Of a stretch of DNA of 64,000 nucleotides, positions 40,631 through 46,074 are shown one piece after another (the first letter of the stretch is position 1; each line of letters begins with the position of its first letter). The notes below the pieces were generated by a model. It worked only from the letters and a program-made list of their open reading frames with translations. It was not told where the DNA came from and did no database searches. The position numbers and the translations under genes are program-made. The stretch comes from Clostridiaceae bacterium (lineage in GTDB: Bacteria; Bacillota; Clostridia; Lachnospirales; Lachnospiraceae), in contig CAJTGF010000002.1 of NCBI GenBank assembly GCA_910575585.1, positions 62,001-126,000 on the forward strand, given 5' to 3'.

Positions 40631-40704
40631 ATCCTCACCGATCACTTTTCGGATCCATACCTGACGAGATCACGCACACAGAAATTCTAGCAAGTACATC
40701 CACA

Positions 40705-40924
40705 TGTACTCTCGGAGTCTCTTTGTGCCTGATTTTGTGAGACGATTTTTTGTCAGATGCGCATACCCAAGGGCATACCGTAACACGTGCTCCTACGGAG
40801 CGGTGGCACTCTGTACCACAAGGTATAAATTTATGAGGCGTACGTAGAACGTACGTTGATTAAATTTAGGTGCATATGACGGAAAATCATCCACAAAGGC
40901 AGGTGCAGGAGAGATTCCGAGAGC
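40705..40924. mobile_element. Family-1 terminal-inverted-repeat element, copy A (MITE-like)
   Basis: 220 bp, non-coding. Left end TGTACTCTCGGAGTCTCTTT and right end complement TGTGCTCTCGGAATCTCTCC form about 27-bp imperfect terminal inverted repeats. The interior also folds back on itself (CGTACGTAGAACGTACG centre). It is flanked by the direct repeat ACATCCACA (40696-40704 and 40925-40933), consistent with target-site duplication. It lies in the leader between the araC promoter and start. Confidence 0.8.
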
Positions 40925-40952
40925 ACATCCACACAGAACGGAGGAATTTCCC

Positions 40953-41896: not shown

Positions 41897-42345
41897 TTAT
41901 TGTTTAGGCGAAGTTTTGGGGAATCCATGAGGATCTGTGTGCTGTCCGGGTTCAGATATGCCAAACATTCCGATGAGCCCCTAAAGCAGAAAACACTCGG
42001 GGTCAGACCCTCCTGTTTTCTTTGATGTACTCTCGGAGTCTCTTTGTGCCTGATTTTGTGAGATGATTTTTTGTCAGATGTGCATACCCAAGGGCATACC
42101 GTAACACGTGCTCCTACGGAGCGGTGGCACTCTGTACCACAAGGTATAAATTTATGAGGCGTACGTGGAACGTACGTTGATTAAATTTAGGTGCATATGA
42201 CGGAAAATCATCCACAAAGGCAGGTGCAAGAGAGATTCCCAGAGTACATTTTGGTCTCATCTCCATGGCATATATTCACCCGGACAGCACACAGATCCTC
42301 ATAGATAAAAACAGGGTTCGCCGGCTTAACTATATCTGGCTGGAT
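41897..42345 (+). repeat. Family-2 variable-arm hairpin element, copy 1 (interrupted by element 1B)
   Basis: Contains the family-2 core (TCAGATATGCCAAACATTCC near 41952 and TGGCATATATTCACCC near 42266) flanked by arms 41927-41950 and 42279-42302, which are perfectly complementary over 24 bases but share no sequence with the arms of copies 2 and 3. The right end carries the conserved AAAANCAGRRTTCGCYGG motif (about 42307-42325). A 223-bp family-1 element interrupts the loop at 42026-42248. Confidence 0.75.
42026..42248. mobile_element. Family-1 terminal-inverted-repeat element, copy B
   Basis: 223 bp, about 96% like copy A by eye and same orientation. Ends TGTACTCTCGG and CCCAGAGTACA. Inserted within the loop of family-2 copy 1, so it arrived after that element. 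Contains the ~60-bp internal segment that copy C lacks. Confidence 0.8.
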
Positions 42346-42375
42346 GTTATTCCTGATTGGTTAGAGAACGGTGCG

Positions 42376-44877
42376 TCACCGCTTCTCCTCCTCAATACGC
42401 ACCGTATCCCCTGCTCTCAACGCCTGCTGGAACATCCCCGGCATACCGTTGACCATCAGTTTCACCACCCCCCTGGGGTGTTCCAAGTCAATACCGGAAT
42501 ACTGGATCAAATCCATAAGGTAATAAGGGCTTTTATCCTCTTTGACCGGCAGTTCAAGGGGAGCGCCGTTAAGCCTGAATACCACCGTACTCGTTGATAC
42601 CTCCCCATCTGGTTTTGCAGCCTCCGCCGGATCGTCTTCCTCCCCATCCAAGGGTTCCTCTAAGGATTCCTCTTCCACTGTCTCCTCAAAGACTTCATCC
42701 AAACCTTTTTGAGTCTCCCGCGTCACGCTTTTATTCCCTTCATCTTCCTGTCCCCCGTCCATCATAGGCGTTACGACAGCGCCAAAACGCCCCAGTCTCT
42801 CCAGAGCCGTCCTCGGATTTACCGGATTTTTCGTCTGGGCTGCCTTCTCCTCCGGGATCTTGGGAGGATCCTGCAAAAGCCACGGCATCCCATCATCCGC
42901 CCCTAACGGCTCCTCCTGCTTCTCCTCCTCAATCGCTCCCCCATCACCGTCAGGCCCCTTAACGGCATCCCGGTGGGATATCTCCGGCATAGCAGGCTCT
43001 TTATCATTATCTTTTTTATCTTTTACTGGCTCATGGCTTTCCTCCCGGGCCTCTTTTACCTGTGTCTCCCTTATCTCTTCCACGCCATCTGCCCTTGGGC
43101 TCTCATCCCTGTCTCCGGCAATCTGGCGGGGCTCGTCGCCTTTCTCCTCCTTACCGGCATCCGCCGCCGCTTCCTTCACCGGCTCCTTCTTCACTTCCGC
43201 CTTTTTAGGCAGGATCATGTGGATCACATCCCCGCTCTTAAGCGGCGTCTTAAGAGGCACATGGATCCCGTTCAACGTAATATCCACACAATCGGCCGCC
43301 CCGTCAATATCCCCCAGACAAGCTTTTGCCCCGATGCCCGGCACCGCAGGCACAAAATCTATGGAATCCCCTGCGTGGATGATATCCGACAGTTTTCCCT
43401 CTTTCTGGTTGATCAGCAAAGTGGCAGGCTCCGAAGCGCTGCCGTAGAAGATCTTCCTGGCCCCGTTGACGATGACCACCAGATTCTGTCCGGCCCTTCC
43501 CAAAAGATCCCGGAAATTGTACCCGTTCATCATCAGCAGGTTCAGGGCCGTAAAGCTGCCGCTGCGGAACAGTTTTGCCGGCTTATTGTTTAAGATGACC
43601 CGAAAGCTGTCATTGATCATGTTCAATCCGGAAGAAACGGCGATCCCCAGCGGCGTAGCGTACTCCGGGTTGTTTAGGTCATACTCGTCCGACCACGCGT
43701 TGGCATTAAAATAATTGCCCGCGATGGCCACCCGCCCCGGCGCCATGCCCAAGGCAGCTGTCAGCCCTTCCTTAAGTCCTGCCAGCTTGCTGCCGCCGCC
43801 TGCCAGGAAAAGGGCGGAGGGGGCGTCGCCGTTGATCTCCATCACTTTGCCGGCGATCTCCTTGCACAAGATCCCGGAAGTACCCTGGATGCACTGGAAG
43901 ATCTCGTCTCTGGAAACCCGGTAATCCATTCCCAGGATATCCTTAAAGGTGATCTCCTCCTCCAGATCCAGCCTGGCCTTAATGCTCTCCGCCGTGGAAA
44001 AATCCACCAGGTACTGTTTCATAATGGTCTCCGTGATCTCGTCCCCGGCCACTGTGGCCATGGTGTAACCTGTGATGCTGCCTCCCGTACAGGCCGCGAT
44101 ATCCGAGGTCCCTGCGCCGATATCCACCAGGACCAGGTTCAAAAGCCGGATATTCTCCGGAATCGCCGCGTTGATCGCCGCTATGGGCTCCAAAGTCAGA
44201 CTTGCCACTTCCAGGCCGATCTTGTTCATGGTGGTGTACAGGCTTTCCACCACCTCGCTGGGCAGGAAGGTGGCAATAAGGTCCACCTTTACCTTTTTCC
44301 CTCTGTGGTCCTTTAAGTTGGAGATGGTGTACTCGTCCAGATAGTACTGGCATACCGTGTATCCCACCAGGTAAAACCGCCTGGGGTCCTCAGCCGCCTC
44401 ATTCTCCGCGTCAAAAGCCTCCTCAGCCTTGGTGATGGCCCCTGCCTCCAGACGGCTGATGATCTCGTCGTCAATCAACTGGGAACCGGAAAGCTCCAGC
44501 TCATACTCCGCCCGCTTTGTCCGCAGAGCCCGGCCGGCCGCAGCCACGCACACCCGGCTAAGGCGGATGCCTGTCTTGTCCTCCAGCCGCTTTTTCACCT
44601 TTCCGGCCAGGGCGGAAACCTTCTCGATATTCTCGATCTGGCCGTCTATCATGGCCCGCTCCGAGTGCTCTTCCTTCTCCACGGCAATGACCTTTATCCT
44701 GCCGTCTTCCACAACACCCACCATGCCGATGATGCTCCTGGTGCCGATATCCATGGCCAGCACCACCTCATTGGCCTGCTCCTTTATCTGCGGCTTTGGC
44801 TCCCTTACTGCCTTTTGCTGCGTCTTTGCTTTTACCTGTTCCTCTGTCTGCGTTTTTTTGGCTTGTCCTCTGGCCAT
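42376..44877 (-). CDS. FtsA/PilM-like actin-fold ATPase with long C-terminal extension
   Basis: Actin-superfamily protein, 833 residues, about twice FtsA's length. Basic/Gln-rich N-terminus (1-35), then the FtsA-like domain (about 38-430): phosphate-1 AMDIGTRSIIG, SHS2-like domain region (RVCVAAAGRALRTKRAEYELE), phosphate-2 LVDIGAGTSDIA and adenosine loop LFLAGGGSKLAGL. Residues 430-555 carry small beta-rich domains (CVDITLNGIHVPLKTPLKSGDVIHMI). An acidic Glu/Lys/Asp linker of about 180 residues follows, and a final beta-grasp-like domain (VFRLNGAPLELPV to RAGDTVRIEEEKR). No FtsA C-terminal amphipathic helix. ATG after AGGAGGAGAGGAGATCAGGTC. Function is unknown: cell division or envelope assembly is inferred only from the ATPase core. 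Confidence 0.82.
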   Translation of the reverse strand: MARGQAKKTQTEEQVKAKTQQKAVREPKPQIKEQANEVVLAMDIGTRSIIGMVGVVEDGRIKVIAVEKEEHSERAMIDGQIENIEKVSALAGKVKKRLEDKTGIRLSRVCVAAAGRALRTKRAEYELELSGSQLIDDEIISRLEAGAITKAEEAFDAENEAAEDPRRFYLVGYTVCQYYLDEYTISNLKDHRGKKVKVDLIATFLPSEVVESLYTTMNKIGLEVASLTLEPIAAINAAIPENIRLLNLVLVDIGAGTSDIAACTGGSITGYTMATVAGDEITETIMKQYLVDFSTAESIKARLDLEEEITFKDILGMDYRVSRDEIFQCIQGTSGILCKEIAGKVMEINGDAPSALFLAGGGSKLAGLKEGLTAALGMAPGRVAIAGNYFNANAWSDEYDLNNPEYATPLGIAVSSGLNMINDSFRVILNNKPAKLFRSGSFTALNLLMMNGYNFRDLLGRAGQNLVVIVNGARKIFYGSASEPATLLINQKEGKLSDIIHAGDSIDFVPAVPGIGAKACLGDIDGAADCVDITLNGIHVPLKTPLKSGDVIHMILPKKAEVKKEPVKEAAADAGKEEKGDEPRQIAGDRDESPRADGVEEIRETQVKEAREESHEPVKDKKDNDKEPAMPEISHRDAVKGPDGDGGAIEEEKQEEPLGADDGMPWLLQDPPKIPEEKAAQTKNPVNPRTALERLGRFGAVVTPMMDGGQEDEGNKSVTRETQKGLDEVFEETVEEESLEEPLDGEEDDPAEAAKPDGEVSTSTVVFRLNGAPLELPVKEDKSPYYLMDLIQYSGIDLEHPRGVVKLMVNGMPGMFQQALRAGDTVRIEEEKR

Positions 44878-45085
44878 GACCTGATCTCCTCTCCTCCTGT
44901 TTCCATGTGAGCCCTCCCCAACATCTGCCCCCTTGGGAAACGCTCCGTATATCCTGTCCCTCCTGCCTGCTCTTTAACGTTCGGGCCTGGGTAAAAAGCC
45001 TGCAGCAAAGGTCATTTTCATCTATTTCATAGGGAAAATCCACGCTCCGGTCCATGTAGGCAGCGCCCTCTAACAGCACGCGCAT
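44768..45085 (-). CDS. Doubtful small frame overlapping the ftsA-like start
   Basis: 105 codons starting ATG with GGGGGAAACT upstream. The first 45 residues (MDRSVDFPYEIDENDLCCRLF) look protein-like, but the last third runs through the ftsA-like 5' end in another frame. It could be a leader peptide or a remnant whose reading frame continues by chance. Not recognised. Confidence 0.2.
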   Translation of the reverse strand: MRVLLEGAAYMDRSVDFPYEIDENDLCCRLFTQARTLKSRQEGQDIRSVSQGGRCWGGLTWKQEERRSGHGQRTSQKNADRGTGKSKDAAKGSKGAKAADKGAGQ

Positions 45086-45105
45086 AGTTTCCCCCTGTTC
45101 ATTAC

Positions 45106-45270
45106 AATGTACTCTCGGAGTCTCTTTGTGCCTGATTTTGTGAGATGCTTTTTTGTCAGACGCGCATAAATTTATGAGGCGTACGTGGAACGTACGTTGA
45201 TTAAATTTATGCGCATATGACGGAAAATCATCCGCAAAGGCAGGTGCAAGAGAGATTCCGAGAGTACATT
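45106..45270. mobile_element. Family-1 terminal-inverted-repeat element, copy C (short form)
   Basis: 165 bp. Ends AATGTACTCTCGG and CCGAGAGTACATT are perfectly inverted, and the rest is one long imperfect palindrome (GCGCATAAATTTA paired with TAAATTTATGCGC). It lacks about 62 bp present in A and B (equivalent to 40766-40827), with ATA at the junction. Flanked by ATTACA on both sides. It lies between the ftsA-like gene and its promoter at 45286-45314. Confidence 0.8.
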
Positions 45271-45285
45271 ACACGTAATATAAGG

Positions 45286-45314
45286 ATTATACAAAGGATT
45301 GACGTCAATTGCAA
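45286..45314 (-). promoter_or_regulatory. Promoter of the ftsA-like gene
   Basis: Minus-strand -35 TTGCAA (45309-45314), 17 bases, -10 TATAAT (45286-45291). The predicted transcript would begin about ten bases before element 1C, giving a leader of about 400 nt that contains the element. Confidence 0.7.
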
Positions 45315-45383
45315 CCCCCAGTCCATGACGAGATCATTTATTGCTGCCTAACCCGGATAAACCGGAACTTTAAATTCGTTATG

Positions 45384-45647
45384 TTGCTGTATTGTTGAGT
45401 GAGCAAAGGGGCCGATTTAGTCGTGAAGCCAGTCAGAGAAGGAGAGATGTCCCGTCCGGGTTCAGATATGCCAAACATTCCGATGAGCCCAAAACGGAAA
45501 TCAGTCGGGTATCATCCCTCCTGCTTTCCTGGTCTCATCTCCATGGCATATATTCACCCTGCCGGGACATCTCTCCTTCTCTGACTGGCAAAACCAGAAT
45601 TCGCTGGTTAAGGTTTGCTCACTTAAGGTGGTTTCGGTAGGGGACGC
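45384..45647 (+). repeat. Family-2 variable-arm hairpin element, copy 2
   Basis: 264 bp. Left end TTGCTGTATTGTTGAGTGAG. Arm 45429-45454 is perfectly complementary over 26 bases to 45563-45588. The conserved core between them contains TTCAGATATGCC and its inverted partner GGCATATATTCA. The right end has the AAAACCAGAATTCGCTGG motif then TTTGCTCACTTAAGGTGGTT. Outermost GTGAGCAAA/TTTGCTCAC also pair. Core and ends match copy 3 almost exactly; arms do not. Confidence 0.8.
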
Positions 45648-45784
45648 TGCTTCAACTTTGCAGCAAAAAATAGCTTCTTTTTAGGGCTTCAAGTATATTG
45701 TTGAGTAAGGTTAAGGCGATGTTGCTGTGAACCTGAAAGGATCTGCAGACAAAGCAGTTATCTTTTCACTACAGAGTCGAAACG
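45648..45784. other. Spacer between two inverted family-2 copies
   Basis: 137 bp with no gene. It contains a GCTGC/GCAGC hairpin and a partial scrambled likeness to the family-2 left end (ATTGTTGAGTAAGG then GTTGCTGTGAAC). The flanks GGTGGTTTCGRTAGGGRACGC are inverted on either side, so the spacer sits at the apex of a very large palindrome. Confidence 0.5.
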
Positions 45785-46050
45785 GCGTTCCCTATCGAAA
45801 CCACCTTAAGCGAGCAAATCCCGGCCAGCGAATTCTGCTTTTGCCCGGGAGGGAAGGGAGGCTGTGTGCCGGGCGGGTGAATATATGCCATGGAGATGAG
45901 ACCAGGAAAGCAGGAGGGATGATACCCGACTGATTTCCGCTTTGGGCTCATCGGAATGTCTGGCATATCTGAACCCGAACGGCACACAGCCTGCCTTCCC
46001 TCCCGGGCCCACGACAATCCCCGCCCATTGCTCACTCAACAATACAGCAA
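45785..46050 (-). repeat. Family-2 variable-arm hairpin element, copy 3
   Basis: 266 bp, inverted relative to copy 2. Arms 45844-45871 and 45980-46007 pair at 27 of 28 positions and share nothing with the arms of copy 2. The core differs from copy 2 at only a few bases. The 23-bp end at 46028-46050 is a perfect inverted match to 45384-45406. Confidence 0.8.
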
Positions 46051-46074
46051 TTCCATTATTTTGTCCATTTAGCA

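Follow-up and report, generated by a model that had tools for sequence, protein, structure and literature searches.

A 64,000-nucleotide stretch of contig CAJTGF010000002.1 (the window, from a Clostridiaceae bacterium) contains three copies of a repeated module in which two arms that pair within each copy enclose a conserved tip. We propose, with a probability of about 0.5, that these modules are mobile DNA hairpins, non-coding and scattered through the genome, with a tip that is recognized and two arms that serve as templates for one another, and that the covariation between the arms is largely mutational.

Module anatomy and arm pairing

String search places the arms at 41923–41947 and 42282–42306 (copy 1), 45428–45454 and 45563–45589 (copy 2), and 45843–45872 and 45980–46008 (copy 3). 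Copies 1 and 2 lie on the forward strand with the 5' arm first, and copy 3 lies on the reverse strand, so that its 3' arm has the lower coordinates. These positions are close to those of an initial annotation, which had correctly recognized a three-copy repeat with self-complementary arms. Folded as single-stranded DNA, copy 2 reaches -52.4 kcal/mol (z = -11.2), and none of 200 shuffles folded as well. The arms pair within each copy, as the annotation held, but they are not wholly unrelated between copies: CTGTGTGC is common to the arms of copies 1 and 3, and across the window genome the arms fall into diverged yet recognizable types.

The module is built, in order, of the 5' arm, a short segment without pairing, ATATGCC, an internal loop with CATTCC, GATGAGCC, a tip hairpin, GGTCTCATC, TCCAT, GGCATAT and the 3' arm, with a conserved asymmetric tip of ~70 nt (CATTCCGATGAGCC ... 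hairpin ... GTCTCATCTCCA). The window genome is one that we infer to belong to the genus Hungatella, which we take to be a member of the Lachnospiraceae. Hungatella arms are ~25–28 bp long, usually start with GCC and end with GGC, are followed on the 3' side by AAAANCAGNATTCGC as a rule, and usually have a GTTGTNGTGG-like stretch upstream. Because conserved sequence continues beyond the arms, we regard them as internal parts of a larger unit. Insertion at the tip of existing palindromes, one of the origins first considered, is rejected for Hungatella by this conserved sequence on both outer arm sides.

We grouped 101 of 106 distinct modules (five with an odd core length were dropped) into 11 arm clusters, for which the mean duplex energy was -46.6 kcal/mol with their own arms and -21.5 kcal/mol with swapped arms. 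The one non-pairing cluster, L086:1449, is apparently a chimeric module formed by recombination between two arm types. A consensus computed with RNAalifold from 24 modules (23 picked for diversity from the 101, plus L078, which is without the tip hairpin; the chimera was excluded) contains 46 pairs, and double changes occur in 28 of these. Under this structure 98.0% of the cells pair, compared with 38–52% for slid partners, and double-change cells number 161, against 26–36 when slid and a mean of 40 when shuffled; the structure derives from the same alignment, which biases these figures in its favour, but the gap is large all the same.

Outside Hungatella, 62 modules were read in 59 of 60 fetched stretches, comprising 22 of the 26 copies in one genome (G280) and 40 of the 67 in another (G156). 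The arms are all different among themselves in both genomes (22/22 and 40/40). They are typically ~32 nt long in G280, where some alignments extend further, and in G156 80–163 pairs align (stems of about 80–165 nt), with a Watson-Crick share of 97.7% over the 40 copies and 91–100% per copy, gaps being left out of the count. Near-perfect palindromes of ~250–400 bp stand at the 40 places read in G156 (e.g. L253 and L277); palindromes of this length are often unstable in laboratory strains. Gapless identity among the 40 G156 copies, taken outward from the core in steps of 15 nt, declines from 0.84 (core) through 0.73, 0.51, 0.41 and 0.35 to 0.31 and 0.31. The G156 arms are thus homologous though diverged, which makes it improbable that arms are taken up anew from the target whenever a copy inserts. 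An origin of the arms as captured foreign DNA is rejected because of the homology between copies, no phage search of the arms having been made.

Selection on pairs or copying between arms

An RNA stem is by convention taken as proven to be under selection when its two sides covary, and the initial annotation had read the covariation as selection of the stem. Three results favour copying between arms in DNA. First, G-T pairs make up 0.4–2.3% of arm pairs. G-T and A-C pairs number 10 and 23, respectively, in 75 Hungatella arm pairs, 5 and 11 in the 22 G280 copies, 48 and 44 in the 40 G156 copies (8 and 20 within the inner 50 nt), and 29 and 26 in 27 modules from 29 loci of other genera and of relatives of Hungatella. 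As a control, 11 tRNAs found at the same loci gave 16 G-T and no A-C pairs, although this control is small and biased, as ARAGORN favours standard pairs and G-U. With stricter alignment and longer flanks the counts become 41 and 22 in G156 and 29 and 19 in G280; the number of wobble pairs thus varies with the alignment settings, and some wobble tolerance is possible.

Second, when related G156 copies are compared, differences that involve both arms number 11111 and those confined to one arm 993, a ~11-fold ratio obtained from 411 non-independent copy pairs with at least 65% same positions, in which the both-arm class is inflated because the arms were chosen by complementarity. Third, a 3-nt indel is matched between the arms in 44 of 46 distinct A-type modules (absent from both arms in 34, present in both in 10) and confined to one arm in two. 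At one arm position of these 46 modules a T-C mispair occurs in 28, T-A in 15 and G-C in 3, which suggests that a mismatch is tolerated in spreading copies, and both resolved forms exist.

Taken together, the rarity of G-T pairs, the two-arm indels and the both-arm differences suggest that self-templated DNA copying fits at least as well as selection. Pairing rather than sequence is what is kept, and this now extends over many more copies and genera, but covariation does not by itself establish selection of the stem. Template switching during replication can create or mend perfect stems in one step (PMC8794818).

Copy number and distribution

A core pattern of 28 positions, allowed up to three mismatches, matches 161 places in the 6.13-Mb window genome (253 contigs), split 81 to 80 between the strands; read backwards, it gave no match in the same genome. 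Numerous copies stand at contig ends (e.g. L041, L064 and L081), so the element appears to break assemblies. In the named contig collection, exact core matches all belong to Hungatella (at least 41 of 41 among the matches listed). Within the genus the core model marks 9 genomes out of 26 as carriers, with at least 137, 72, 57, 37, 33, 26, 3, 2 and 1 matches.

A covariance-model search of related genomes, as the initial annotation had suggested, was productive: the module model has matches in 12 of 299 sampled genomes of the family, each from another genus (E ≤1e-4), and the core model in 3 of 391 genomes sampled from the class, all within the same family. At E ≤0.01 there are 26 copies in G280 (on one contig), 67 in G156, 14 in G246 and 8 in G145; in the family sample G131 has at least 10 module matches and G224 has 7, and in the class sample G683 has 4 core matches. 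The hairpin family is so far known from one family of gut-type bacteria only. Its patchy distribution fits a mobile element. A comparison of element DNA with plasmids and phages gave no match, viral contigs held no exact match to the core pattern, and a literature search, thin in subscription journals, turned up no description of the hairpin family. In single-copy genomes the neighbours are ordinary-looking host genes, as judged from translations read by eye; in one such genome (G074), the copy at L193:1519-1636 lies between genes that, by the same reading, resemble those for microcompartments or ethanolamine use.

Gene neighbourhood and the case for an RNA

Copies are mostly intergenic. By crude open reading frame (ORF) calls, the genes on either side of the 62 modules both read rightward at 13 (>E>), both leftward at 18 (<E<), toward the element at 18 (>E<) and away from it at 12 (<E>), and one module is without a left gene. 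Of 31 left genes that read toward the element, 27 end no more than ~41 nt from the arm. The right gene faces the element in 36 of 62 cases when pooled (p = 0.25) and in 19 of 40 in G156; in G280 (L228–L247), the 3'-side gene faces it in 17 of 22 (p = 0.017), a possible polarity. The lack of overall gene polarity is a mild argument against an RNA that acts in cis with one set polarity, and it is weakest for G280. A chromosome strand count for G280 (10 versus 16), made by hand on the assumption that the origin is at base 1, is not relied on. ORFs of at least 600 nt run across a core in 7 of the 62 modules, and by eye none looks like a broken gene: at L233, L261 and L264 the portion across the element resembles a gene's upstream run-on, and the other four are chance-like.

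No Rfam family matches the window or the element stretches at gathering scores, in agreement with the initial statement that no named family has this layout. Permissive thresholds returned microRNA precursors, a snoRNA and a viral packaging signal on the element, all below gathering scores; the best, MIR868 on L250, has E 4.4e-7 and 49 bits against a gathering score of 200, and we take the microRNA matches to be what any long hairpin yields. Two further candidates were discarded: RF01699 in L076, which is a neighbour of the element and not the element itself, and a hammerhead-like CCGATGAG, noticed by eye, which is one side of a stem with no conserved GAAA after it.

These results bear on a structured non-coding RNA, of which one strand would be transcribed, the copies would be spread by an element and the stem would be selected at the RNA level. 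Strong covariation in stem and tip, conserved internal loops, occurrence in 12 genera of one family plus one from the class sample, the G-T excess at the stricter alignment setting and the gene orientation in G280 are all consistent with it. Its weak points are that G-T pairs are rare and, at the other alignment setting, not above A-C, that the G156 stems are long and near-perfect without any orientation preference, and that Rfam holds no match at gathering scores. The RNA put forward initially is weakened by the lack of a clear wobble preference and of a consistent gene orientation, and we consider it possible but unlikely.

A composite element in Hungatella

Copies 2 and 3 are the inverted modules, A and B, of a single composite element that extends from 45348 to about 46073. 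On the forward strand it comprises an L end (45348–45383) that starts with CTAACCC and has 46 genome copies at ≤3 mismatches, an adjoining box TTGCTGTATTGTTGAGTGAGC (45384–45404), and module A, with its apical core at 45455–45562 and a conserved 3' flank (AAAACCAGAATTCGCTGG...CTCACTTAAGGTGG) at 45590–45631. A variable spacer without assigned strand (45632–45800) separates the two modules. On the reverse strand follow the conserved 3' flank of module B (45801–45842), its apical core (45873–45979), the inverted copy of the box (46030–46050) and, by eye, a remnant of the R end (46051–46073), whose full form TTAAGAACGATTTCTTGCGCAAAATGGCAAAATAATG has 41 genome copies, again at ≤3 mismatches. Copy 1 is a solo module on the forward strand, the apical core of which (41948–42281) is interrupted at 42025–42249 by a copy of another repeat family (family 1). 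That second family occurs in the window at 40704–40928, 42025–42249 (where it interrupts the tip region of copy 1) and 45107–45269, and its ends, ATGTACTCTCGGAGTCTC ... GAGAGATTCCGAGAGTACAT, are self-complementary.

The two composite ends, L (CTAACCCGGATAAACCGGAACTTTAAATTCG) and R, are distinct. In 40 fetched stretches, at looser settings, they form 23 L-R pairs with outer edges 268–1062 bp apart, and at a typical end the box comes next and then an inward-pointing module. Of the 23 pairs, 13 have module A at L and B at R, 7 have the reverse arrangement, 2 have A at both ends and one is unassigned. The composite interior is thus found in either orientation relative to the L and R ends (13 versus 7 of 23; G000 composites, L131–L166), as if it could invert between the boxes. 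CTA flanks the left side of all 23 pairs and, by eye, the right side of 21. Among the sites listed, two are likely empty sites with a single CTA: GAGCCC-CTA-AAGCAG (L148), which lies within another module copy, and CTC-CTA-TATCTG (L158 compared with L109, its orthologous site in a relative). Based on these flanks and sites, the composite probably duplicates CTA; as alternatives, TA alone may be duplicated, or CTA may be the shared core of a recombinase.

Such ends invite comparison with a classical DDE-type miniature inverted-repeat transposable element (MITE) of Hungatella, in which the hairpins would be cargo of long inverted repeats. The two defined ends with their 4-bp terminal match (ACCC/GGGT), the CTA on both sides and the size range of the 23 pairs fit this description. 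However, the ends are hardly alike past ACCC, copies in G280 and G156 are solitary as a rule and not seen with L or R ends, and no autonomous copy was seen, so that such an origin appears improbable. No transposase gene was seen in the composite, the 23 pairs not having each been searched for genes, and no longer L-R pair was noticed among the 46 L and 41 R places listed and in the 40 stretches, several ends lying at contig ends or being truncated.

Search for a mobilizing enzyme

A hairpin read by a single-strand transposase, also suggested at first, is possible, but Y1_Tnp has no match in G280, G156, G145, G246, G131 and G224, the six genomes of other genera with several copies (7 to 67) in which it was searched for, and is likewise absent from G022, G016 and G024 (88, 65 and 78% complete). 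A Y1 match is present in four of five single-copy genomes. Modules lie beside or around 3 of 22 Y1 loci (12 in the genus and 10 elsewhere; three weak matches in the window genome were left out): they flank L173 and L179 on both sides, the gene at L179 being decayed, and L182 on one. The IS200-type transposase genes there, two of them decayed, lie inside or beside the composite spacer (L173:120-1074, L179:1171-2041 and L182:301-741). The IS200 at L173 seems to have its own ends, like the plain copy at L171, and may therefore be a passenger. Because six carriers are free of Y1, the enzyme seems not to be needed today and may have been lost.

If a Y1 (IS200/RAYT) transposase moved the hairpins in single-stranded form, the family would be one of the REPIN type (doublets of repetitive extragenic palindromes, REP) or of the bacterial interspersed mosaic element (BIME) type. 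Inverted hairpin doublets, high and mostly intergenic copy number, the Y1 genes between or beside modules, the Y1 matches of single-copy genomes and a GTTGTGG-like stretch 5' of the hairpin foot in many, not all, G280 and Hungatella copies are what such an element might show. REP hairpins of this type are short and have a GTAG/GTGG guide at the foot; the present hairpin is far longer. Inverted module pairs in G280 number two among 26 copies, and in the G156 list, read by eye, no copy lies within about 2.9 kb of another. Given the Y1-free genomes, the possible passenger at L173, and the apparent duplication of CTA, where IS200/IS605 insertion makes no target duplication, we hold this type of element to be quite unlikely.

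Proposed mechanism and its weight

For the mobile DNA hairpin that we favour, we propose the following course. A structure-specific enzyme or binding protein would recognize the tip once the DNA extrudes as a hairpin, during replication or transposition. The arms could then diverge freely while one arm repeatedly templates the other, rewriting being accomplished by template switching or by mismatch repair within the extruded hairpin. Selection would maintain the tip and the existence of a stem, not the individual pairs, and arm covariation would be largely mutational. A bolder version, in which the family is a new kind of mobile DNA with a folded single-strand stage, an arm rewritten in each cycle, private near-perfect arms for each insertion and an enzyme that reads the tip only, is tentative, and we regard it as possible though rather doubtful.

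Several observations weigh against the proposal. The tRNA control is limited as described, the stricter alignment yields more G-T than A-C pairs, the both-arm count is inflated by the choice of arms, and G280 shows a possible gene polarity. If templates are switched, changes should cluster side by side and pair types might be biased by strand, but no such bias is seen in G156 (GC 1364, CG 1489, AT 846, TA 768). Other module copies show a single A or CGA at the position of the L148 CTA, which makes that empty site uncertain, and neither an enzyme nor an autonomous copy was found.

The family matters in three respects. Paralogous hairpins, present by dozens in some genomes with covariation, little wobble and common indels, indicate that copying may mimic the proof of an RNA stem, and covariance scans can label such elements RNA genes. 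They also form a large natural data set with which to separate selection from template switching, including the upkeep of long perfect hairpins. Finally, they point to a putative structure-reading factor in gut-type bacteria.

Comparison with known systems

Integron attC sites are folded DNA read by structure and have variable arms, a likeness drawn from their general description only. Palindrome-associated transposable elements (PMC3119063), of the archaeon Haloquadratum, are reportedly mobile elements tied to palindromes; the likeness is one of name. MITEs resemble the family in being short and present in many copies, in having no transposase gene that was seen and, in Hungatella, in the probable target duplication. 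Here, in contrast, a large structured hairpin whose arms covary lies at each end, the terminal match is very short and a parent element was not found; small size, defined ends and a probable target duplication occur together in the Hungatella composite only.

REP, BIME and REPIN sequences are imperfect palindromes too, lie between genes in many copies and are frequently paired in inverted orientation (PMC3116915, PMC6006769). REP hairpins measure 21–65 nt (PMC6006769), whereas the hairpin here is ~150–400 nt, its arms vary within one genome and six carriers have no Y1 gene. Template-switched hairpins, so far as the accessible part of PMC8794818 describes them, likewise keep their stems perfect in that one arm is copied from its partner in a single step, but there the hairpins belong to RNA genes (rRNA, microRNA) and here to a mobile family with locus-specific arms. 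Since a defining feature of REPINs and of IS200 elements is lacking and the MITE features are confined to the Hungatella composite, we file the hairpin family under no existing family.

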